A stretch of DNA of 64,000 nt. Source: Paraburkholderia sp. D15. GTDB taxonomy: Bacteria; Pseudomonadota; Gammaproteobacteria; Burkholderiales; Burkholderiaceae. This document shows, piece by piece, positions 45,937-64,000 of this stretch. The first letter of the stretch is position 1. Every line of letters starts with the position of its first letter. The translations under genes and the position numbers were made by a program. The stretch covers positions 2,170,001 to 2,234,000 of the forward strand of contig NZ_CP110395.1 in the NCBI RefSeq assembly GCF_029910215.1. Reading direction: 5' to 3'. The notes under the pieces were generated by a model. It was not told where the DNA came from. It worked only from the letters and a program-made list of their open reading frames with translations, and ran no database searches.

Positions 45937-47295
45937 TCACCGGCCTCGCCGGAACGCCTCCGCCGCATGCCGCTCCGGCAACTGATCTGCTTCGCCGAAC
46001 AGCTTGCGCCGCAGCGTCCCCTCCGCATACGCGGTCTTGTACAGTCCACGATTCTGCAATTCCGGCACCACCAGGTCGATGAAGTCCTCGTAACTTTCAG
46101 GCACCACGGTACGGCTCAGATTGAATCCATCGACACCTGTCTCCTCGACCCAGCCCTGCAGTTCATCCGCCACCTGCGCCGCGCTGCCGACGATCGCTGG
46201 ATAACGGCCGCCCATCTCGAACATGTCCAGCAGCTTGCGGCGGGTCCAGCCGTGCTGTTTCGCGGTGCGGGTGGCCGATTCGATCGCGTTGCCCGGCTGG
46301 TAGTCCACCGGCTCGTCGAGGTCGTACTGCGCGTAGTCGATACCCGTGCTCGCCGCGAAATGCGCCAGCCCCGCTTCGCGGCTCGTGTACCGCAGATAGT
46401 CCGCGTATTTCTCGCGGGCTTCCCGCTCGGTGGCGCCGACCACCACCGCCGCGCCGGTAAAGACCTTCACGTCGTCCGGCCGGCGGCCGGCCTGCACCAG
46501 TTGCTCGCGCAACGTTCGCACGGTCTCGCGCGCGGCCTGGCGGTTCGGCGGCGAGATGAACACGCACTCGGCATGGCGCGCGGCGAAGCGCTGGCCACGC
46601 CCGGAACTGCCGGCCTGAAACAGTACCGGCGTGCGTTGCGGCGACGGCTCCGCGAGGTGATAACCGTCGACGTTGTAATAACGCCCCGCATGCTGCACGC
46701 GATGCACCTTCGACGGGTCCGCGTACACGCGCGCGGCCTTGTCGCGCCGCACCGCGCCCTGCTCCCAGCTGCCTTCCCACAGCTTGTACAGCACCTCCAG
46801 ATATTCATCCGCGCGCTCGTAGCGCTCGTCGTGCGGCAATTGCTCGCTGAGGCCCATCGCGCGCGCCGCGCTGTCCAGATAACCGGTGACGATGTTCCAG
46901 CCCACCCGCCCCTGCGTCAGATGATCCAGCGTCGAAAAACGCCGCGCCAGCAGATACGGTTGCTCGTAGGTCAGATTGACGGTGACGCCGAAACCAAGAT
47001 GCTGGGTGACGGCGGCCATTGCCGGGACCAGCAGCGTGGGATCGTTGACCGGCAACTGGATCGATTCGCGCAGCGTGGTGTCCACGTTGCGCTGATAGAC
47101 GTCGTAGACGCCGACGATGTCCGCGAGAAACAGCCCGTCGAACAGCCCCCGTTCCAGCGTGCGAGCGAGGTCGGTCCAGTACGGCAACAGCCGGTAATCG
47201 CTCGACGTATCGCGCGGATGCGTCCATAGCCCATGATTGATGTGACCCACGCAATTCATGTTGAACGCGTTGAGCAGAATCTGTTTGCTGGCCAT
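45937..47295 (-). CDS. NtaA/SnaA/DszA-family flavin monooxygenase, first copy
   Basis: 452 residues from the ATG at 47295, whose first base is also the last base of the upstream stop (TGATG), so it is translationally coupled to the SfnB-like gene before it. LLM fold: LLNAFNMNCVGHINHGLW at the start, LFLADIVGVYDVY, QGRVGWNIVTGYLDSAARAMG, PVLFQAGSSGRGQRFA and GVDGFNLSR near the end. It uses FMNH2 from a separate reductase. The group includes DszA (sulfone monooxygenase), and pairing with SfnB/DszC-type enzymes supports organosulfur oxidation. A second copy of this type lies at the window end. Confidence 0.88.
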   Translation of the reverse strand: MASKQILLNAFNMNCVGHINHGLWTHPRDTSSDYRLLPYWTDLARTLERGLFDGLFLADIVGVYDVYQRNVDTTLRESIQLPVNDPTLLVPAMAAVTQHLGFGVTVNLTYEQPYLLARRFSTLDHLTQGRVGWNIVTGYLDSAARAMGLSEQLPHDERYERADEYLEVLYKLWEGSWEQGAVRRDKAARVYADPSKVHRVQHAGRYYNVDGYHLAEPSPQRTPVLFQAGSSGRGQRFAARHAECVFISPPNRQAARETVRTLREQLVQAGRRPDDVKVFTGAAVVVGATEREAREKYADYLRYTSREAGLAHFAASTGIDYAQYDLDEPVDYQPGNAIESATRTAKQHGWTRRKLLDMFEMGGRYPAIVGSAAQVADELQGWVEETGVDGFNLSRTVVPESYEDFIDLVVPELQNRGLYKTAYAEGTLRRKLFGEADQLPERHAAEAFRRGR

Positions 47296-48566
47296 CACAA
47301 GGCTCCGTGCCGCGGCGGCAGTGTGTCGTTGAGGGTGTAGTTGCCCACGGCGTGATACTTCCAGCGCACCGGGTCGTGCAGCGTATGCGTGCGCGCATTG
47401 CGCCAGAAGCGGTCGAGGCCGAGACCGTCGAGCGTCGCGGCGGTGCCGGCGAGTTCGAAGAGCCGCGAGCCGGCGTCGAGCGACACGGTGGTGGTCAACG
47501 CGCGCGCTTCGGCCACCGCGATCGATGCCTGCGCCACCGAGCGCTCGTCGGGCCGCGCCTGAGCGGCATCGACAAAGCGTCCCGCGCGGCGCAGCAGGGC
47601 CTCGGCCGCGCGCAGCCGCGCCGCAAGGTCGCCGAACTGAACGATGGTCAACGGATCGTCGGCGGCGCGCTCGACCTTCGCGTCGATCCAGGGTCGCGAG
47701 CGCTCGCGCACGAAGGTGAGCGCGGCGTCGAACGCGCCGCGCGCCTGGCCCAGGTCGATCGCCGCGTGGATGATCTGCGCGAGCGGGCCGATCGTCGTCG
47801 GCCGTTCGAACGACACCTGAAACGGCACCACCCATTCGGGCTCGACGCGCACGTGTTCGAACTGCACCGAGCCGCTGCCGGTCACGCGCTGGCCGAAGCC
47901 GTCCCAGTCGTCGGTGATCGTGACGCCGGGCGTGTCGCGCGGCACGAACGCGAGATAGGTGATCTCGCGACCGGCCTCTTCCGCGACGACGAGCGTCGGA
48001 ATCCAATGGGCGTACAGCGCGCCGGTGCAATAGAACTTGCGGCCATCGATATGCCAGCCCGCCGCCGCGCGCGTGAGCCGCGTGCGGCGCTTGAAATCCT
48101 TGTGGCCGATTTCCGCGAGCGCATTGCCGAAACGTTCGCCGGCCAGCACGCGGCCGTAGAAAAAGCGCTGCTGCTCGACGCTGCCGCCCACGCGCAGCAC
48201 TTCGAGCGCGTAGAAATGATTCTGCGGAATCTGGCCGAGCGAGCCGTCGGCGGCGGCGATGGTCGCGGTGACTTCGGCGAGCGTGCCGTTGCGCACGCCC
48301 GCGCCACCGAATTCGCGCGGCACGGTGATGCCCCATAGCCCGCTCGCGACGAATGCGTCCAGTTCGGCCCACGGCAGACGTCGTTCGCGATCGCGCAATG
48401 CGGCCTCGGTGGCGAACGCGTTGGCGAGACGACGGGCGGCGAGCAACGCGTGAGCGTCGTCGGCGATCAACTCGGGCACGGCGGTTGGCGATTCGTGGTG
48501 CGCAGCGGGACTCGCCGCGATCGAAGGCAGGCTGTCGAGCAGCGCGGAGGAAAGATCAATCGCCAT
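47295..48566 (-). CDS. SfnB/DszC-family flavin monooxygenase A
   Basis: 423 residues, acyl-CoA dehydrogenase fold. ERRLPWAELDAFVASGLWGITVPREFGGAG (helical N domain), GQIPQNHFYALEVLR, WHIDGRKFYCTGALYAHWI (flavin/substrate strand of the SfnB group) and the C-terminal FWRNARTHTLHDPVRWKYHAVGNY hallmark of SfnB. These proteins are FMNH2- and oxygen-dependent monooxygenases used under sulfur starvation, not acyl-CoA dehydrogenases. It starts three bases after the end of its paralogue and runs into the DszA-like gene, forming a three-gene operon. Confidence 0.87.
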   Translation of the reverse strand: MAIDLSSALLDSLPSIAASPAAHHESPTAVPELIADDAHALLAARRLANAFATEAALRDRERRLPWAELDAFVASGLWGITVPREFGGAGVRNGTLAEVTATIAAADGSLGQIPQNHFYALEVLRVGGSVEQQRFFYGRVLAGERFGNALAEIGHKDFKRRTRLTRAAAGWHIDGRKFYCTGALYAHWIPTLVVAEEAGREITYLAFVPRDTPGVTITDDWDGFGQRVTGSGSVQFEHVRVEPEWVVPFQVSFERPTTIGPLAQIIHAAIDLGQARGAFDAALTFVRERSRPWIDAKVERAADDPLTIVQFGDLAARLRAAEALLRRAGRFVDAAQARPDERSVAQASIAVAEARALTTTVSLDAGSRLFELAGTAATLDGLGLDRFWRNARTHTLHDPVRWKYHAVGNYTLNDTLPPRHGAL

Positions 48567-48569
48567 GGT

Positions 48570-49820
48570 TCAGTTCCACGAGTGACGCGCCGGAAGCACG
48601 TGATTCAGATGATAGTTGCCGAGCAGATGCAGTTTCCAGCGCACCGGGTCGTGCAGCGTGTGCGTGCGGGCGTTGCGCCAGTGACGATCGAGGTTGTGCG
48701 CGGCGCGCGTCGACGAGGAACCGGCCAGCTCGAACAGTTTTTCGCTGGCTTCGAGCGCGATGCGCGTGGTCAACACCTTCGCCTCGGCCACCGCGACCGA
48801 CGCGCGGGCGCTGGCCTCGGCATCGAGCGGCGCGGCCGCGAGTTCGTCGAGCGTGTGGCCGGTTTCGATCAGCACTTCATGCGCGGCGTGCAGATCGATC
48901 TGCAGACGGCCGACGTCGGCAATGATGTAGGGATCGTCGGTGGCGCGCTCCAGCCCGGAGTCCACCCACGGGCGCGCGCGTTCGCGCACGTAGGCAAGCG
49001 CATCGGCCACGGCGGCCTGCGCGATGCCTTGATCGATCGCCGCCTGAATCAGTTGCGACGTCGGGCCGTAGAGACCTGGGCGGTCGGCCAGTTGCCAGAT
49101 CGGCAAGACGTCGTCGGCATCGATGGGAACGTTGTCGAACACCACGCTGCCGCTCGCGGTGGTGCGCTGGCCGAACGAATGCCAGTCGTCGATCACGCTG
49201 AGGCCAGGCGCGTCGCGCGGCACCCAGACCTGCACGGCGCGGCCTTCGTCGTCGGTGGCGCGCGCCGGCACGCGGTGCGCGAACAAGGCGCCGGTCGAAT
49301 AGAAGCGTTGGCCGTCGAGACGCAGACCGTCGGGCGTCGAACGCAGCCGCGTGCTGCCTTGCAGGACCGTGGCCGCGGCGGCCGAGCGGCGTTCGGGGCC
49401 GGCATTGCCGAGACGCTGGCCCGCCAGCACTTCGCCGTAGAGCCGCGCTTTCTGCGCCGGCGTGCCGATCTCGCGCAGCACGCCGAGCACGCCGAAATGG
49501 TTTTGTGGAATCTGGCCGAGCGCGGGATCGGCCGCGCAAAGGTTCACGAACACGTCGGCGAGCGTCGCGAACGATACGTCGGCGCCGCCGTATTCGCGCG
49601 GCACGGTGATCGCGCCGAGGCCGCTGTTCGACCAGAGATCGAGTTCGGCCCAGGGCAGGCGCCGTTCGCGGTCGCGCACGGCGGCGTCTTCCGCGAAAAT
49701 CGCGGCGAGTTCAAGGGAGGCGGCGAGCGCGGCGGCATCGTCCGCGATTCTCGCCACGCGAGCGGGATCGGGACGTGCCGCGACGCGCGGCGCGGTAGTG
49801 TCGAGTTCGGGATTGGACAT
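48570..49820 (-). CDS. SfnB/DszC-family flavin monooxygenase B
   Basis: 416 residues from the ATG at 49820. It is a paralogue of the next gene: ERRLPWAELDLWSNSGLGAITVPREYGGA, GQIPQNHFGVLGVLRE, LRLDGQRFYSTGALFAH and the C-terminal HWRNARTHTLHDPVRWKLH are shared. It differs mainly in the middle (a PERRSAAAATVLQG segment replaces the usual IGHKD-type region, so the substrate pocket may have changed). First gene of the SfnB-SfnB-DszA-like operon; no flavin reductase is encoded beside it. Confidence 0.86.
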   Translation of the reverse strand: MSNPELDTTAPRVAARPDPARVARIADDAAALAASLELAAIFAEDAAVRDRERRLPWAELDLWSNSGLGAITVPREYGGADVSFATLADVFVNLCAADPALGQIPQNHFGVLGVLREIGTPAQKARLYGEVLAGQRLGNAGPERRSAAAATVLQGSTRLRSTPDGLRLDGQRFYSTGALFAHRVPARATDDEGRAVQVWVPRDAPGLSVIDDWHSFGQRTTASGSVVFDNVPIDADDVLPIWQLADRPGLYGPTSQLIQAAIDQGIAQAAVADALAYVRERARPWVDSGLERATDDPYIIADVGRLQIDLHAAHEVLIETGHTLDELAAAPLDAEASARASVAVAEAKVLTTRIALEASEKLFELAGSSSTRAAHNLDRHWRNARTHTLHDPVRWKLHLLGNYHLNHVLPARHSWN

Positions 49821-50132
49821 GATGGTTCTTGCGGATCGTGGAGACCTGGCCAGCGGCGCGCTTGCCGGCGTGTCGCCGACTCGCGACGGCGCAGCCGGCG
49901 CAGCGAACCAGCGAAGCGGCGCGCCACGCGAGACCACCTAAGGCCACATCAGGGCACACCAGGCCATGCGGCAGGCGCACCGCCGTGAACAGGTCAATCG
50001 GCTATTGAACCAGCAGGCGAAGTCCACGCCTACCATCGAATTGGAACTTGCTTATGACGCGCTTCGATTTGCGGCCCGCATCGCGTGGCGGACAGACGTC
50101 AACACGCGAGCGGGATGCGTCGAACTTCTACC
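49821..50132. other. Upstream region of the SfnB-like operon
   Basis: About 310 bases between the operon start and the small winged-helix gene, both on the minus strand. It presumably carries the operon promoter. No repeat, RNA gene or clear operator was recognised. Confidence 0.45.
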
Positions 50133-57192: not shown

Positions 57193-58212
57193 TCAAACCG
57201 TGCGCCACTTCGCGTCCGCCACCACCAGCTTTTTCGGAATCAGCTTCAACTCGCTGAACGTGTCGGCGATCTTCTGCTGATAGTCGAAGGTGGCGGCATC
57301 CACGGATTGCACGCCGTAGCTGGTGCGTTTCAACGCGACTTCGAGCGTCGGCGCGTCGAGCCCGACGAGCGGCGACAACTGACTCGCCACCTCGGGAATA
57401 TGATCGCGGCTCCAGCGGTCCACCTGATCGAGTTCGGCCAGCAATTCATGCAGCAATTGCGGCTGCGCGTCGGCGAACTTGCGCGCGGCGACGTAGTACT
57501 GCGTGTTGTTCACGAGCCCTTCGCCGTTGACGATCACCCGCGCGTTGGCCTGGCGCTCCACGGCCGCGAGGTACGGGTCCCAGATCACCCATGCGTCAAT
57601 GCTGTTCTGCACGAACGCGGCGCGCGCATCGGCGGGCGTCAGATACACCGGTTGAATGTCGGTGTACGACAGCCCCGCATGCTGCAAGGCCTTCACCAGC
57701 AGATAGTGCACGTTCGAGCCGCGATTCAGCGCGACCTTCTTGCCGCGCAGATCGGCGACCGAACGGATCGGCGAATTCTGCGGCACGACGATCGCCTCGC
57801 CCTTCGGCGCGGGCGGTTCGTTACCGATATAGACGAAATCGACGCCGGCCGCCTGCGCGAAAATCGGCGGCGTTTCGCCGACCGTGCCGACATCGACCGC
57901 GCCGGCGTTCAAGCCTTCGAGCAGTTGCGGGCCGGCCGGAAATTCGAGCCATTGCACGGTCGCGCCCTGCGCGGCGAGGCGCTTCTCCAGCGTGCCGCGC
58001 GCCTTGAGTACCACGAAATTGCCGTATTTCTGGAAGCCGATGCGCAGCGTCTTGCCCTTGGCCGGCGTCTGCGCCCAGGCGCCTGGCGATTGCAGCAGCG
58101 TGCCGGCGGCAAACGTCGTGACGCTGGCGGCGGCGATTTTCAGCAGGGTGCGTCGGCGCGGATCGGCCGGATCGATGAACGACGGGGTATCGGAAGAGTC
58201 GCGGGATGTCAT
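57193..58212 (-). CDS. ssuA: Aliphatic sulfonate-type ABC substrate-binding protein (SsuA-like)
   Basis: 339 residues. Signal region after RRRTLLKIAAASVTTFAAGTLLQ (an R-R-R-T-L-L Tat-like start), cut after AWA. SsuA/TauA-type pattern: LRIGFQKYGNFVVLKARGTLEKRL, PAGPQLLEGLNAGAVDVGTVGETPPIFAQAAG, GSNVHYLLVKALQHAGL and DAWVIWDPYLAAVE. It captures sulfonates in the periplasm. No SsuB or SsuC genes adjoin it, so it borrows a transporter. It follows cysE by 130 bases on the same strand. Confidence 0.88.
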   Translation of the reverse strand: MTSRDSSDTPSFIDPADPRRRTLLKIAAASVTTFAAGTLLQSPGAWAQTPAKGKTLRIGFQKYGNFVVLKARGTLEKRLAAQGATVQWLEFPAGPQLLEGLNAGAVDVGTVGETPPIFAQAAGVDFVYIGNEPPAPKGEAIVVPQNSPIRSVADLRGKKVALNRGSNVHYLLVKALQHAGLSYTDIQPVYLTPADARAAFVQNSIDAWVIWDPYLAAVERQANARVIVNGEGLVNNTQYYVAARKFADAQPQLLHELLAELDQVDRWSRDHIPEVASQLSPLVGLDAPTLEVALKRTSYGVQSVDAATFDYQQKIADTFSELKLIPKKLVVADAKWRTV

Positions 58213-58342: not shown

Positions 58343-59317
58343 TCATAGGGTGACGACCCTGGCCGGATGCGCGGCGCCCCGTGTCGACGCGGTGAATTCG
58401 CGCACCACGGCGGAGCCCGCGCCTTCGTTGCGCGACACGGCCTGCGTCACGTGCGAGCCGGGCGCCACATCCTGCGTGAGCCACACGTTGCCGCCGATCA
58501 CCGAGCCGCGTCCGAGCGTGACGCGGCCGAGGATCGTCGCGCCCGCATAGATGACCACGTCGTCCTCGACGATCGGATGGCGCGCGTGGCCCTTTTCCAG
58601 ATGCCCTTGCCCGTCGCGCGGAAAACGCTTCGCGCCGAGTGTGACGGCCTGGTAGACGCGCACGCGTTCGCCGATCACGGCGGTTTCGCCGATCACCACG
58701 CCCGTGCCGTGATCGATGAAAAAGCCCGCGCCGATTTTCGCGCCGGGATGGATGTCGATGCCGGTCTGCGCATGCGCGTGCTCGGCGACGATGCGCGCGA
58801 GCAGCGGCAGACCGAGCCCATATAGTTCATGCGCGAGACGATGGTGAATCATCGCCAGCACGCCGGGATAGCACAGCAGCACCTCGTCGACGCTGCCGGC
58901 GGCCGGATCGCCGTGATACGCGGCGAGCACGTCGCTGTCGAGCAGACTGCGGATGGCCGGCAGGCGCGCCGCGAAAGCGCGCACCGCGATACCGGCCTGC
59001 GCCTCGATCACCGCGGCCGGCGGCGGCTCATGACGATGGCGATAGTGCAACTCCAGGCGCGCCTGACTCAGCAGCCCGTGCAGCGCGGCGTCGAGCGCGT
59101 GCCCGACGTAGAAATTCTCGCTTTCCTGACGCAGGTCGGGCGGCCCGAGCCGCATCGGAAACAGCACGCCTTTCAGCGTGGCGATGATCTCCGCGAGCGC
59201 CTCGCGCCCCGGCAGATCGCGTCCGCCCGGTTCGAGCGAGCGTCGCTGCGTTTCGCGCCATTGCTGACGCACGGTCTGCAAGGCCAGCACGATTTCGTCG
59301 ACATCAAACACAGCCAC
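58343..59317 (-). CDS. cysE: Serine O-acetyltransferase
   Basis: 324 residues from a GTG at 59317 with AGGGAG upstream. A long N-terminal helical domain (residues ~1-180) is followed by the left-handed beta-helix with hexapeptide repeats: TGIDIHPGAKIGAGFFIDHGTGVVIGETAVIG and the active His/Asp region, then VIYAGATILGRVTLGRGSVIGGNVW. It makes O-acetylserine, the precursor for cysteine and the sulfur-starvation signal. Its place between an SsuA-like gene and a divergent sulfur monooxygenase fusion links sulfur uptake with cysteine assembly. The long N domain is typical of the EpsC-type group. Confidence 0.88.
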   Translation of the reverse strand: MAVFDVDEIVLALQTVRQQWRETQRRSLEPGGRDLPGREALAEIIATLKGVLFPMRLGPPDLRQESENFYVGHALDAALHGLLSQARLELHYRHRHEPPPAAVIEAQAGIAVRAFAARLPAIRSLLDSDVLAAYHGDPAAGSVDEVLLCYPGVLAMIHHRLAHELYGLGLPLLARIVAEHAHAQTGIDIHPGAKIGAGFFIDHGTGVVIGETAVIGERVRVYQAVTLGAKRFPRDGQGHLEKGHARHPIVEDDVVIYAGATILGRVTLGRGSVIGGNVWLTQDVAPGSHVTQAVSRNEGAGSAVVREFTASTRGAAHPARVVTL

Positions 59318-59632
59318 GGCGATGACTCCCTGTAGAGCGCAACGTGGATCGATGGGAATAGATCGATGAGTCGCGAGGCCGCCGCATCGAATCTTTTCAG
59401 CACTATGCGCGAGAGCCGGCCGCGCCCGAACCAATTTTTTGTGATTTCTAAAGAAGCATCGGTTTGTTCGCTGGTGCGAGTGAGCAACGGGTAGGCCGCG
59501 GCCAGGACAACGAACATCGATGCGGGGTGCGTACCTGGCCCGCGCCGAGATATTCATATGGCGTTTCGTTGTTTGTTGATCCGCATCGCCATGCTTATGT
59601 TTACGCGTTGCCACGACCCTTCTCCGACCAGC
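59318..59632. promoter_or_regulatory. Divergent promoter region of cysE and the monooxygenase-dioxygenase fusion
   Basis: About 315 bases between divergently read genes, AT-rich near 59430-59475 (a T run followed by GTGATTTCTAAAGAAG). The direct repeat GATCGATG occurs twice (59352 and 59365 area). It should carry both promoters; no specific operator is proposed. Confidence 0.45.
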
Positions 59633-61864
59633 ATGACGACACTGCCGCAACCGCACCTCGATGTGCATTTCAACGCGCATGCCACCTCGTCCGGCACACG
59701 CCTCGCCTCTGACGAAATCGCCGACGATGCCGTCGACGAAAAAACCGATGCCGCCCTGCTCGCCCGATTCGCCGATGTCTTCGACCGCATCGCGGCCGGC
59801 GCGGTAGCGCGCGAGCAGCAGCGCGAACTCGCGCACGACGCCGTGCAATGGCTGCGCGAAGCGGGCTTCCATGCGTTGCGCGTACCGCGACGTTACGGCG
59901 GCAGCGGCGTCACGCTGCCGCAATTCTTCAGGCTGCTGGTGCGCCTGGGCGAAGCGGATTCGAATCTGCCGCAGATTCTGCGGCTCAACTTCGGCTTCGT
60001 CGAAAACCGTTTGGAGAACGATGATGAAACGACGCGCGAGCGCTGGCTCACGCGCGTGGCGAACGGCGAGCTGGTCGGCGCGGCGCTGTCGGAACGCAGC
60101 GCATCGACGCACAACTCCGTCACGCTGACGCGCGCGCCGCACGACGCAAACCGCTGGCTGCTGAACGGCGAGAAGTACTACAGCACCGGTTCGCTGTACG
60201 CCGACTGGATCAACGTCAACGCGCACGACGGCGACTACGACGTCAACCTGATGGTGCGCGGCGACGCGCCGGGCGTCGAACGGATCGACGACTGGGACGG
60301 CTTCGGGCAGCGGCTGACCGCGAGCGGCACGACGCGCTTCACCGACGTCGAGGTCACGGCAGAGCAGATTCTGCTGCGGCATCGCCTGTCGGCGCCGCAA
60401 CGCGACACCTTCCAGATCGCGTTCTATCAGAACGTGCATCTCGCGACGCTGGCCGGCATCGCCCGCGCGGCGCTGCGTGATGCGACCGCGTTCGCGCGTG
60501 CGCATACCCGCACGTTCGGCGTGCCCGGCAAGTCGAGTCCGCGCGACAACCCGCTGGTGCAGCGCGTGATCGGGCGGATCGCGAGTCTCGCGTATTCGGC
60601 GCAGAGTCTCGTGGCAACGCTCGCCGAAAGTCTGGAGCGCGTGTCGCGATTGCGCGCGGCGAATGCATCGACGCAAGAGGATTACGTCGCGCTCGATATC
60701 GAGGCATACCAGGCGCAACAGACGGTGATCGCCCAGGTGCTCGAAGCGACCACCCTGCTGTTCGAAGTGGGCGGCGCATCGGCCACCAGCGAACGCTTGC
60801 GGCTCGACCGTCACTGGCGCAATGCACGCGTGATCTCGTCGCACAATCCGGCGATCCAGCGCGAGCAGGCAGTCGGCGCGTTCTATCTGAACGGTACCGC
60901 GCCCAGCGAGCGGTTCAGTCTTGCGCATCGGCGGGATGAGGTGTCGTCGAGCGCGCCATCGGCGGCTAGCTCGCGCGAGGTGTCGAGCGGCGAGCCGGGC
61001 ACGTGCGCCCCGTTCGCAGTCGAACGGCTGCAAGGCGCCGCGCTCGGCGCCGAGGTGCGCGGTCTCGACGCCACGCGCGAGCTGGCCGCGCATCAACTGC
61101 TCGCCCTCAGGCAAGGGCTGCTCGATCATCGCATCCTCGTGTTTCGCGGCCAGCAACTGGACGACCCGCAGTTCCGTCGCCTCGCCACGTATTTCGGCTC
61201 GGTCTACACGCCGCCGCGCAATGCGCCGGTGCTCGGCTCCGATGCGGCCGGCGTGGTGCCCGACATCGTCGTCGTATCGAACGTCGACGACGGTCTGCTC
61301 GGCAATCACGATCTGCCCGCGCATTCGGATCATCACTGGACGCCGGAACCGTCGTCGGGCTCGCTGCTGTACGCGCTCGAAGTGCCCGGCGACGGCGGCG
61401 ACACGAGCTGGACCGACCTGGTGGCCGCGTACGAAGCACTCGATGAAGCGACCCGCGAGCATATCGACACGCTCAAGCTGATCACCTACAACCCGTTCCT
61501 GCGCCGCAAGTTTCCGCTCGACGGCGGCGCGCCGCTGTACCGCACGCCGGACATCGCGCCGCTCGAACCGTGGGTCGCGCATCCGCTCGCGCGCACGCAT
61601 CCGCACAGCGGCAAGCGTCTGCTGTATCTCGGCGCGCGCACCGAGGTCGAGATCGTCGATTACGACCCCGTGGCCGGTGCGGCGCTGATCGAACGCCTGC
61701 GTGCGCATCTGGCGTCGCCGCGCTTCGTCTATACGCATCGCTGGCAGGCGGGCGATATCGTCTACTGGGACAATCAGGCCACCCTGCACGCGCGCACGGA
61801 ATTCGATCCTTCGCAGCGGCGCGTGCTCAAGCGCATCAGCCTGGCGGGGAGCCGGCCGTTTTGA
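59633..61864 (+). CDS. Fusion protein: DszC/SfnB-like flavin monooxygenase joined to TauD/TfdA dioxygenase
   Basis: 743 residues from the ATG at 59633 (an upstream in-frame ATG at 59558 is possible). Residues ~30-430 are a full acyl-CoA-dehydrogenase-fold monooxygenase of the DszC/SfnB group: FHALRVPRRYGGSGVTLPQF, GAALSERSAS, WLLNGEKYYSTGSLYADWI, DDWDGFGQRLTASGTTRF and the SfnB-like end RLRLDRHWRNARVISSHNP. A Ser-rich linker (~430-455) leads to a complete TauD/TfdA domain: GAEVRGLD, DHRILVFRGQQL, iron ligands His564-Ser-Asp566 (AHSDHHW), distal His719 (QATLHAR) and the 2-oxoglutarate Arg in VLKRISLAG. Both active sites look intact. It is divergent from cysE. Likely role: oxidative release of sulfur from an organosulfur compound. 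Confidence 0.88.
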   Translation: MTTLPQPHLDVHFNAHATSSGTRLASDEIADDAVDEKTDAALLARFADVFDRIAAGAVAREQQRELAHDAVQWLREAGFHALRVPRRYGGSGVTLPQFFRLLVRLGEADSNLPQILRLNFGFVENRLENDDETTRERWLTRVANGELVGAALSERSASTHNSVTLTRAPHDANRWLLNGEKYYSTGSLYADWINVNAHDGDYDVNLMVRGDAPGVERIDDWDGFGQRLTASGTTRFTDVEVTAEQILLRHRLSAPQRDTFQIAFYQNVHLATLAGIARAALRDATAFARAHTRTFGVPGKSSPRDNPLVQRVIGRIASLAYSAQSLVATLAESLERVSRLRAANASTQEDYVALDIEAYQAQQTVIAQVLEATTLLFEVGGASATSERLRLDRHWRNARVISSHNPAIQREQAVGAFYLNGTAPSERFSLAHRRDEVSSSAPSAASSREVSSGEPGTCAPFAVERLQGAALGAEVRGLDATRELAAHQLLALRQGLLDHRILVFRGQQLDDPQFRRLATYFGSVYTPPRNAPVLGSDAAGVVPDIVVVSNVDDGLLGNHDLPAHSDHHWTPEPSSGSLLYALEVPGDGGDTSWTDLVAAYEALDEATREHIDTLKLITYNPFLRRKFPLDGGAPLYRTPDIAPLEPWVAHPLARTHPHSGKRLLYLGARTEVEIVDYDPVAGAALIERLRAHLASPRFVYTHRWQAGDIVYWDNQATLHARTEFDPSQRRVLKRISLAGSRPF

Positions 61865-61924: not shown

Positions 61925-63019
61925 TCAATCAGCGGCCGGAATCCACGCTGCCGTCGCGGCATCGCTCGAACGGAACGCCGGAAATTTCTCGCCCAGTTCC
62001 GCAATCGTCTTGATGTTGTTCTTCACCAGATCGTCGCGCGTGATCAGCGTCGGCTTGACGACGATCCGGTGCGCCGGCGTTTGCCCCGCGAGCAGCAACG
62101 CGGCGGCACGCACCGAGACCGCGCCGACCACGGCGGGGTTGGTCGCCGCCGTCGCCACCCACGCGCTGTTCGGCGCGCGGATCGCCTCGATATCGGACGT
62201 CGATATATCCGCGCTGTAAATACGCAGCTTCGACGCGAGATTCGCCTCGTCGGCGGCGAGTTTCGCGCCGCGCGCGAATTCGTCGTATGGCGCGAACACC
62301 ACGCGAATCTCGGGATGCGCGCGATACGCGGCGGCCGCCTGATTCGCGACCGATTGCGCGATCGGATTGTCCACCGTGCCCCAGCGCGCCTTCTCCTGCA
62401 CCTGCGGATGGGCGGCCTTGAAGTCGCGCCACACCGCGTCGCGCCGGTCGAGCGGCGCGAAACCCGCGACATACACGTAACCGGCGGCGAAGCGATCGCC
62501 GTTGTCCTTCACCGCCTGGTCGAGCAGCAGCGACGCGAGATCGTGGTCGCTCTGCTCGATCTGCGGCACCTTCGGGTTGCCGAGATCGACGTCGAACGCG
62601 ACCACCTTGATGCCTTTGTCGAGCGCGCGCTGCACCACGTCCTTCAGCGATTCGGGCAAGCCGTGATTGACGATGATCGCCGACACGCCAAGGCTGATCG
62701 CCTGCTGGATCTGCTCGCGCTGTTCGGCCGCATCCTGACGGCCTTCGTAAATGCGCAGGTCGATGCCGAGCGCCTTCGCCTGCTTCTGCGCACCCGCTTC
62801 GTAAGCCTGGAAGAAGTCGCCGGTCGACAGATAGTTGACCAGCGCGACCTTCACGCCGCCCTTGTCGAACGGCGCGGGCGCGCCCTTCAGCGGCGCGGCT
62901 TGGGCCGTGGCGCTCACCGTGGCCATCAAGGCCGCGCCGGTCACCAAGGTAGCGGCGGCGACGGCGAGCGTCGCCGGTCTGAGCTTCAGGTCCAGCGTGC
63001 GACGAAGAAACGATTTCAT
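61925..63019 (-). CDS. Sugar-type periplasmic binding protein (Peripla_BP_4)
   Basis: 364 residues from the ATG at 63019 with GGAG upstream. Signal region LAVAAATLVTGAALMATVSATAQA. Ribose-binding-protein fold: KVALVNYLSTGDFFQAYEAGAQKQAKALGIDLRIY, EQREQIQQAISLGVSAIIVNHG, GIKVVAFDVDLGNPKVPQIEQSDHDLASLLLDQAVK. The ligand is more likely an unusual organosulfur or sulfated compound than a sugar, because it is flanked by two flavin monooxygenases of the sulfur type. No permease or ATPase lies in the window; they may lie just beyond its end. Confidence 0.85.
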   Translation of the reverse strand: MKSFLRRTLDLKLRPATLAVAAATLVTGAALMATVSATAQAAPLKGAPAPFDKGGVKVALVNYLSTGDFFQAYEAGAQKQAKALGIDLRIYEGRQDAAEQREQIQQAISLGVSAIIVNHGLPESLKDVVQRALDKGIKVVAFDVDLGNPKVPQIEQSDHDLASLLLDQAVKDNGDRFAAGYVYVAGFAPLDRRDAVWRDFKAAHPQVQEKARWGTVDNPIAQSVANQAAAAYRAHPEIRVVFAPYDEFARGAKLAADEANLASKLRIYSADISTSDIEAIRAPNSAWVATAATNPAVVGAVSVRAAALLLAGQTPAHRIVVKPTLITRDDLVKNNIKTIAELGEKFPAFRSSDAATAAWIPAAD

Positions 63020-63099: not shown

Positions 63100-64000
63100 T
63101 TAATCCGCCGCTACCGCCGCGCGCGTGTGCGGCGTGTGCTGCGTGCCGTGTGTACGATAGGCTGCGCCCGGATGCGGCTCGGCCAGCCGCGGCCCCTTGC
63201 CGTGCAGTTTTTCGCGCAGCGAGCCCTGCGCGTAATCGGTCTTGTAGACGCCGCGCCGTTGCAGTTCCGGCACGACCAGGTCGACGAAGTCCGTGAAGGT
63301 TTCGTGGGTCACCGCATAGGCGAGATTGAAGCCGTCCACGTCGGTCTCCTCGACCCACGACTGCAACTCGTCGGCGATCTCCTCGGGGCTGCCCACGGAC
63401 AACGGTCCCAGTCCGCCAATGCCGCCCCACTTCGCGATTTCGCGCACGGTCCACACGCGCGTTGGGTCCGCGCTCGACAGCGCCTCCACCGCGGATTGCA
63501 CCGCGTTGCTCTCGACATGGCGCAACGGCTCGTCGAGGTCGTACTTCGACAGATCGATGCCGGTCCAGCCGGACATCAGCGCGAGCGCGCCCTCGTCGCT
63601 GGCATCGCGGCGATAGTCGGCGTGTTTCGCGTGCGCTTCGGCGGAGGTCTTGCCGGTGATCACGGTGTGCAGATTGAAGATCAGCACGTCGTGCGGATCG
63701 CGGCCGAACGATTTCACGCGCGCCCGGATATCGGCGACGAAGTTTTTGAGGATCGTGCGCGACGGCGCGGCGATGAAGATGCACTCGGCGTGCTGGGCGG
63801 CGAAGTCCTTGCCGCGCTTCGATGCACCGGCCTGATACAGCACCGGCGTGCGCTGCGGCGACGGCTCGCACAGGTGAATGCCAGGCACGTCGAAATACGG
63901 CCCGCGATGGCGGATCGGATGCACCTTCGACGGTTCGGTGAACACGTGACGCGCGGTGTCGCGCACTACCGCGTCGTCTTCCCACGACGCTTCCCACAGC
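63100..64000 (-). CDS. NtaA/SnaA/DszA-family flavin monooxygenase, second copy, cut by the window end
   Basis: The C-terminal ~300 residues of an LLM monooxygenase whose N terminus lies outside the window. TEPSKVHPIRHRGPYFDVPGIHLCEPSPQRTPVLYQAG, GTGITGLDLSKYDLDEPLRH-type region (DLSKYDLDEPLRHVESNAVQ), and VDGFNLAYAVTHETFTDFVDLVVPELQ are shared with the copy at 45937-47295. It stops 81 bases before the periplasmic binding protein gene on the same strand, so the two are probably one transcript. Confidence 0.85.
   Translation of the reverse strand, partial: LWEASWEDDAVVRDTARHVFTEPSKVHPIRHRGPYFDVPGIHLCEPSPQRTPVLYQAGASKRGKDFAAQHAECIFIAAPSRTILKNFVADIRARVKSFGRDPHDVLIFNLHTVITGKTSAEAHAKHADYRRDASDEGALALMSGWTGIDLSKYDLDEPLRHVESNAVQSAVEALSSADPTRVWTVREIAKWGGIGGLGPLSVGSPEEIADELQSWVEETDVDGFNLAYAVTHETFTDFVDLVVPELQRRGVYKTDYAQGSLREKLHGKGPRLAEPHPGAAYRTHGTQHTPHTRAAVAAD

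Follow-up and report, generated by a model that had tools for sequence, protein, structure and literature searches.

The 64,000-nucleotide stretch of Paraburkholderia sp. D15 analysed here (the window, C1:2170001-2234000 of an 8.3 Mb genome in three contigs) carries at 59633-61864(+) a gene whose single frame of 743 residues, with no internal stop in its translation, joins two oxygenases: a group D flavin monooxygenase resembling DszC, MsuC and SfnB, followed by a Ser-rich linker and an Fe(II)/2-oxoglutarate (2OG) dioxygenase of the TauD superfamily. The natural fusion is rare and apparently unstudied. Judging from its domains, relatives and neighbours, we give a probability of roughly 0.5 to its being a bifunctional organosulfur-scavenging oxygenase, in which one half would oxygenate sulfur and the other would cleave the C-S bond. 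Literature searches of open-licence PubMed Central (PMC) papers found no description of a fusion of these two oxygenases, in keeping with an earlier sequence-only reading of the locus that knew of no characterised example.

A rare natural fusion

Pfam recognises Acyl-CoA_dh_N/M/2 at residues 52-405 and TauD at residues 464-735, all above their gathering scores (PF02668: 184.8 versus 27), which bears out the flavin monooxygenase-TauD fusion proposed by the sequence-only reading; the HxD...H...R set of the superfamily is kept as well. The motifs that it had pointed to, GEKYYSTGSLYADWI, HWRNAR and HSD, are present in the translation, and the distal His (His719) and Arg are conserved throughout the clade described below. 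At the finer level of NCBIfam, none of the 22 hits to the protein reaches its own cut-off.

The N domain (residues 1-430, 59633-60922(+)) has the acyl-CoA dehydrogenase fold and is predicted to use reduced flavin mononucleotide (FMNH2), and the C domain (residues 461-743, 61013-61861(+)) is the dioxygenase. Between them lies a Ser/Ala-rich linker (residues about 431-460, 60923-61012(+)), also rightly noticed earlier. An AlphaFold2 model built on a 62-row alignment has a mean predicted local distance difference test score (pLDDT) of 80.9 and a predicted template modelling score (pTM) of 0.62; pLDDT falls below 50 at residues 407-456, a stretch comprising the tail of the first domain together with the linker, so that the linker is predicted to be disordered and the relative placement of the two domains is left undefined by the model. 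The TauD half modelled alone (58 rows) reaches a pLDDT of 91.5.

Searching about 5.8 billion proteins in 90%-identity clusters (7995 candidates scored, best 120 of 2885 matches listed) revealed seven other full-length fusion clusters, P0002-P0008, with 714-719 residues and 76-82% identity, one of them named Paraburkholderia bryophila. The present fusion (P0001) exceeds these by 24-29 residues, part of which lie in the linker and part near the N terminus. A second search with the TauD half, limited to proteins 0.55-1.75 times 743 residues long (7997 candidates scored), returned nine proteins: the same seven fusions, a fusion of glutathione transferase (GST) with TauD (P0242) and one remote TauD. 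In BFVD, the 13 matches at E <= 0.001 each covered one half only, and no fusion was found.

The sequence-only reading had asked whether the fusion might prove common, which it is not: among 144 same-genus genomes, three carry it (the source genome, G016 and G037). In samples of the family and the order, where scoring was limited to the top candidates per genome, it occurs in 2 of 398 genomes, both of the same genus (E <= 1e-185), and in the source genome only (n = 399, E <= 1e-120), respectively; neither sample yielded a fusion outside the genus among these candidates. Two of the 80 TauD-clade loci examined below are fused, a set that may omit the source genome itself. Between the three fusion genomes, the ratio of nonsynonymous to synonymous substitution rates (dN/dS) is 0.12-0.17 in both domains, both of which are under purifying selection. 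The linker has diverged, with a dN of 0.74-0.90 over 12-17 codons versus 0.07-0.12 in the domains.

The protein collection holds the gene from the window solely as a 269-residue piece, P0122 (window:61055-61864), which starts inside the dioxygenase, perhaps because of a long open antisense frame. That frame, 58343-61789(-), runs for 1148 open codons across the fused gene and was rejected as a gene, being interrupted by three and eight stops in G016 and G037, respectively. A longer start of the fused gene at ATG 59558 (25 further codons, 768 residues) was judged unlikely, since the upstream block is conserved as DNA but shifted in frame in G016 and stopped in G037; in favour of the longer start, G090 and protein P0124 keep the frame open. 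A frameshift or an assembly join of two adjoining genes, the other doubt raised by the sequence-only reading, could claim that the full frame is missing among the fusion-search matches listed and that the protein collection has only P0122 for this gene, yet it is virtually excluded by the seven other full-length clusters from several sources, the two further genomes and the low dN/dS of both domains, with a stop-free frame and an antisense frame that is closed in relatives pointing the same way.

The monooxygenase half

The N half matches the structures of TdsC, DszC, MAB_4123 and MsuC. It combines the acyl-CoA dehydrogenase fold with a closer likeness to DszC, TdsC and MsuC than to the dehydrogenases, which places it among the group D two-component flavin monooxygenases. 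By alignment, His404 (60842-60844(+)) is the equivalent of DszC His391, taking the numbering of 4doy to be the native one plus 20 (437 versus 417 residues; assumed), and it is found in 34 of 34 N-type rows of a chosen alignment, as are the other key residues of the domain. A role of DszC His391 is mentioned in PMC11134501.

The dioxygenase half

For the C half, a clade alignment of 58 chosen rows was assembled from the window domain, 48 of the 120 listed proteins and nine of the 80 loci. The complete Fe/2OG set, H564, D566, H719, R730 and R734, is present in 58/58 rows each. His564 and Asp566, the iron ligands of the HSD motif, lie at 61322-61330(+); the distal ligand His719 lies at 61787-61834(+) together with Arg730 and Arg734, which align with Arg266 and Arg270 of TauD. 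Arg730 presumably plays the 2OG role of Arg266. Two positions depart from Escherichia coli TauD: Pro527 (61211-61213(+)) occupies, within an ungapped stretch, the position of His70, which binds taurine, and His567 (61331-61333(+)) replaces Val102 in all 58 rows. The substrate is probably not taurine, and the clade marks a TauD subfamily, ranging from Paraburkholderia to Nostoc, with a pocket unlike that of taurine dioxygenase.

Origin and decay of the fusion

Of the 41 rows in the N-type tree, 8 are fused and 33 are selected stand-alone proteins; here the fusions form a 100/100 clade that also contains the stand-alone protein P0009, which sits beside P0002 within the fused clade, and two changes are needed. 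The TauD tree, with 26 rows of which 8 are fused and 18 are selected stand-alone proteins, places three of the latter, P0123, P0124 and P0125, in a 100/99 clade with the fusions and calls for four changes, for which one gain and three losses are preferred, although its inner branches are mostly weak. Both domain trees fit a single origin of the fusion, and all named members of its clade are Paraburkholderia.

G090 encodes P0009; there the N half alone occupies the same locus, between cysE/SsuA-like genes on one side and binding-protein, luciferase-type and SfnB genes on the other. Its position and its end inside the linker make a loss of the dioxygenase in G090 the most likely course; blastn and tblastx revealed no convincing TauD remnants after the gene among the matches listed. 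Conversely, P0124 retains the start of the fused protein (MSTLPKH) and the linker motif RFSLA while its first domain is gone, and in G121 the dioxygenase has no N half and is preceded by the upstream block of the fused gene (73% identity across 67 bp). This stand-alone TauD gene of G121 adjoins an SBP56-family gene, L032:10943-12379(-), which scores 96 bits with the methanethiol oxidase model (cut-off 650).

The fusion probably arose from two adjoining genes. In a Pseudacidovorax metagenome-assembled genome (L059), an N-type gene with 48% identity ends 9 nt before the TauD start, in tandem and in the same frame, and Variovorax J22P271 (L060) has the same order in different frames. Burkholderia sp. 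H160 (L048) and P. unamae (L063) carry N-type and TauD genes as divergent neighbours. The Variovorax locus was considered as a second, independent fusion owing to a 556-codon open extension, and was rejected because the N-type frame stops and differs from that of TauD.

Possible functions of the fused protein

In the bifunctional reading, the N domain would take FMNH2 from a separate reductase and add oxygen to sulfur in a sulfide, sulfoxide or sulfinate. The C domain would then hydroxylate the carbon beside the oxidised sulfur, upon which the C-S bond would break, and the products, an aldehyde and sulfite or sulfinate, could enter cysteine synthesis when sulfate is scarce. Fusing the two enzymes would fix their ratio and proximity, and a closed channel would not be needed for this.

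S-oxygenation followed by C-S cleavage is our best guess on the order of events, by analogy with two neighbourhoods. In Komagataeibacter, a relative of the N half lies, by annotation, with luciferase-type, ssuD, FAD (flavin adenine dinucleotide) oxidoreductase, major facilitator superfamily and flavin reductase genes. In Nostoc (L087), a relative of the C half is accompanied by SsuA-like, methyltransferase and permease genes, a gene of the acyl-CoA dehydrogenase fold and SsuD (622.6 versus a cut-off of 518.2). The same order had been put forward by the sequence-only reading with sulfonate cleavage as its second step, a step that we infer for the C half no more firmly than this because the His70 of TauD is absent. 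Sequential action of both halves on one molecule is plausible. The channelling of an intermediate suggested by the same reading is not supported, given the low-confidence linker, the pTM of the model and the occurrence of either half alone in close relatives. A sealed channel is unlikely, and channelling is unlikely to be essential because the fusion came apart, leaving an N-only gene in G090 and stand-alone dioxygenases nested among the fused ones.

Of 80 TauD-clade loci (the best 80 of 133; partners are hits to window proteins at E <= 1e-20), 57 have at least one of three partner types within 5 kb of the TauD-clade gene: group D genes (28, including the two fused loci), luciferase-type genes (24) and SsuA-like genes (33). 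For rough comparison, the whole query finds 13 matches across the 8.3 Mb of the source genome. In G016, G037 and G090, the gene, whether fused or N-only, has an SsuA-like gene as a divergent neighbour, the fusion in G037 diverging from SsuA-type, TauD-type and ATP-binding cassette (ABC) transporter genes. Behind a TauD/TfdA gene, Variovorax paradoxus carries luciferase-type, SfnB, ABC transporter and NADPH-dependent oxidoreductase genes.

Several observations weigh against the bifunctional reading. The neighbourhood counts are raw, i.e. taken without a shuffled control, and in Pseudomonas a group D gene lies within 5 kb of none of 19 loci and a partner of any type at only three, a second TauD gene being present instead in 15 of the 19. 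The Nostoc gene of the acyl-CoA dehydrogenase fold scores below the cut-offs of both SfnB (125.1) and 3-sulfinopropanoyl-CoA desulfinase (124.8) and was not matched by the group D queries. The scanned genes around the fusion included no recognisable flavin reductase. The place of TauD His70 is taken by Pro in 56 of the 58 clade rows and by Ala in the other two, and in structure comparisons TauD ties with the aryloxyalkanoate dioxygenases (AADs) AAD-1/RdpA for the fold of the C half. Finally, each half stands alone in close relatives (N in G090; C in G121 and P0124), and 58 of the 144 genomes from the same genus give an N-type match at E <= 1e-100 but no TauD-clade match at E <= 1e-70, suggesting that the N half usually works without a TauD-type partner.

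These last two points speak for two independent sulfur-scavenging enzymes joined for co-expression, each with its own substrate and no intermediate passed between them, an explanation that we hold to be a serious contender, if short of even odds. It would also account for a linker that is variable and of low confidence, and for the N half keeping its locus in G090, but the tandem and divergent N-C pairs of L059, L060, L048 and L063 suggest joint use of the two steps. That the C domain instead acts on a carboxylate or ether in the manner of AAD/TfdA, or hydroxylates a side chain without C-S cleavage, appears improbable: the tie in fold is set against best sequence matches among solved structures that are called taurine dioxygenases, the retention of Arg734 (TauD Arg270) in all 58 rows, and neighbourhoods with SsuA-like genes, SsuD and sulfur monooxygenases.

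In a bolder form of the bifunctional reading, an S-oxygenase using FMNH2 would pass what it makes to the fused Fe(II)/2OG dioxygenase, itself representing a new substrate class, and one protein would desulfurise a single organosulfur molecule by two successive oxygen chemistries with different cofactors. We rate this as rather unlikely; the marks of such a class would be the change of His70 to Pro and the clade-wide His next to the iron-binding Asp. Should the halves work one after the other, the fusion would reveal the pairing of S-oxygenase and C-S-cleaving dioxygenase, which is difficult to deduce where SfnB/DszC-like and TauD-like genes are separate, and would offer a single protein for the search for the substrate.

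The locus and its upstream element

The surroundings of the gene match the sulfur setting described in the sequence-only reading. The divergent neighbour at 58343-59335(-) is a serine O-acetyltransferase gene of the cysE/EpsC type; the sequence-only reading had called it cysE, whose model falls short (TIGR01172, 163.9 versus 210.65), and the EpsC model is the one above its cut-off (NF041874, 158.3 versus 150). Next to it lies an SsuA-type sulfonate-binding protein gene (57193-58212(-); NF008588, 317.7 versus 299). About 10-14 kb left of the fusion, a luciferase-type gene and two SfnB genes stand in a row (45937-49937(-); SfnB 612.7 and 580.9 versus 430.9). On the other side, a convergent periplasmic binding protein gene (Peripla_BP_4, 61925-63010(-)), which has the same place beside the fusion of G016 and beside the N-only gene of G090, is followed by an FMN monooxygenase gene of the NtaA/DmoA family (luciferase-type, 63100-64000(-); L015:4100-5509, TIGR03860, 589.4 versus 279.7) that crosses the window end, with a further SfnB gene to its right. 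Monosaccharide-type ABC transporter genes accompany the luciferase-type and SfnB genes here (L015:2961-9713(-)). The paralogue in the same genome lies two genes away from an O-acetylhomoserine sulfhydrylase gene.

Upstream of the fused gene, a conserved block (59550-59616(+)) is a probable promoter or regulatory element, with the core TTGTTTG-N15-ATGCTTATG at 59569-59599. Identity is 90% with G090 (116 bp) and 77% with G037 (100 bp), both aligned spans extending into the first codons. The source genome holds one exact site and four with two mismatches, so that the element would serve a small set of genes at most; as the mark of a wide regulon, it was rejected on these numbers. One near copy with two mismatches, L129:4583-4613(-), precedes a porin gene beside a luciferase-type gene, which means that the block in G121 does not by itself establish that the gene there derives from a fusion; the block could instead be the sign of a small sulfur regulon. 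In L048, an element site lies before a further gene.

Comparison with known systems

The C half shares with TauD (and AtsK) the fold, the HxD...H motif and two C-terminal Arg residues. As an equivalog of TauD it falls well short (NF007104, 150.8 bits versus 313), it has a His where TauD has Val102, and it sits inside a larger protein. His70 and Arg270 of TauD contact taurine, according to PMC9304159; of these, the C half keeps the latter as Arg734 and has Pro527 in place of the former.

Another fusion is the GST-TauD protein P0242 (504 residues), whose C domain belongs to the same TauD clade and is 61% identical, its partner being a glutathione transferase domain. In Pseudomonas (L076:9025-11525), the TauD pair has a GST-like gene behind it (156.6 bits, cut-off 198), and tblastn with the GST part of P0242 gave matches at three other loci only.

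The N half is only 22-26% identical to the dibenzothiophene monooxygenases DszC and TdsC and the methanesulfinate monooxygenase MsuC, and His388 and Asp392 of DszC are replaced by Ile401 and Asn405. Its best NCBIfam hit is the SfnB family, whose genes share its neighbourhood. The DszC/SfnB label of the sequence-only reading thus survives as a likeness within group D and not as an identity: the N half scores 114 against a cut-off of 850 for DszC (NF043015) and 260.6 against 430.9 for SfnB (TIGR04022), compared with 581-646 for the three surrounding SfnB genes.

Dms1-Dms3 of Acinetobacter baylyi ADP1 are likewise group D enzymes, likened here by description, that oxidise dimethyl sulfide and dimethyl sulfoxide in sulfur assimilation, as given in PMC13352529, and are separate enzymes there. 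MsuC produces methanesulfonate for MsuD, according to PMC8234197; putting a TauD-type enzyme in place of MsuD/SsuD would yield the pathway that we propose for the fusion.
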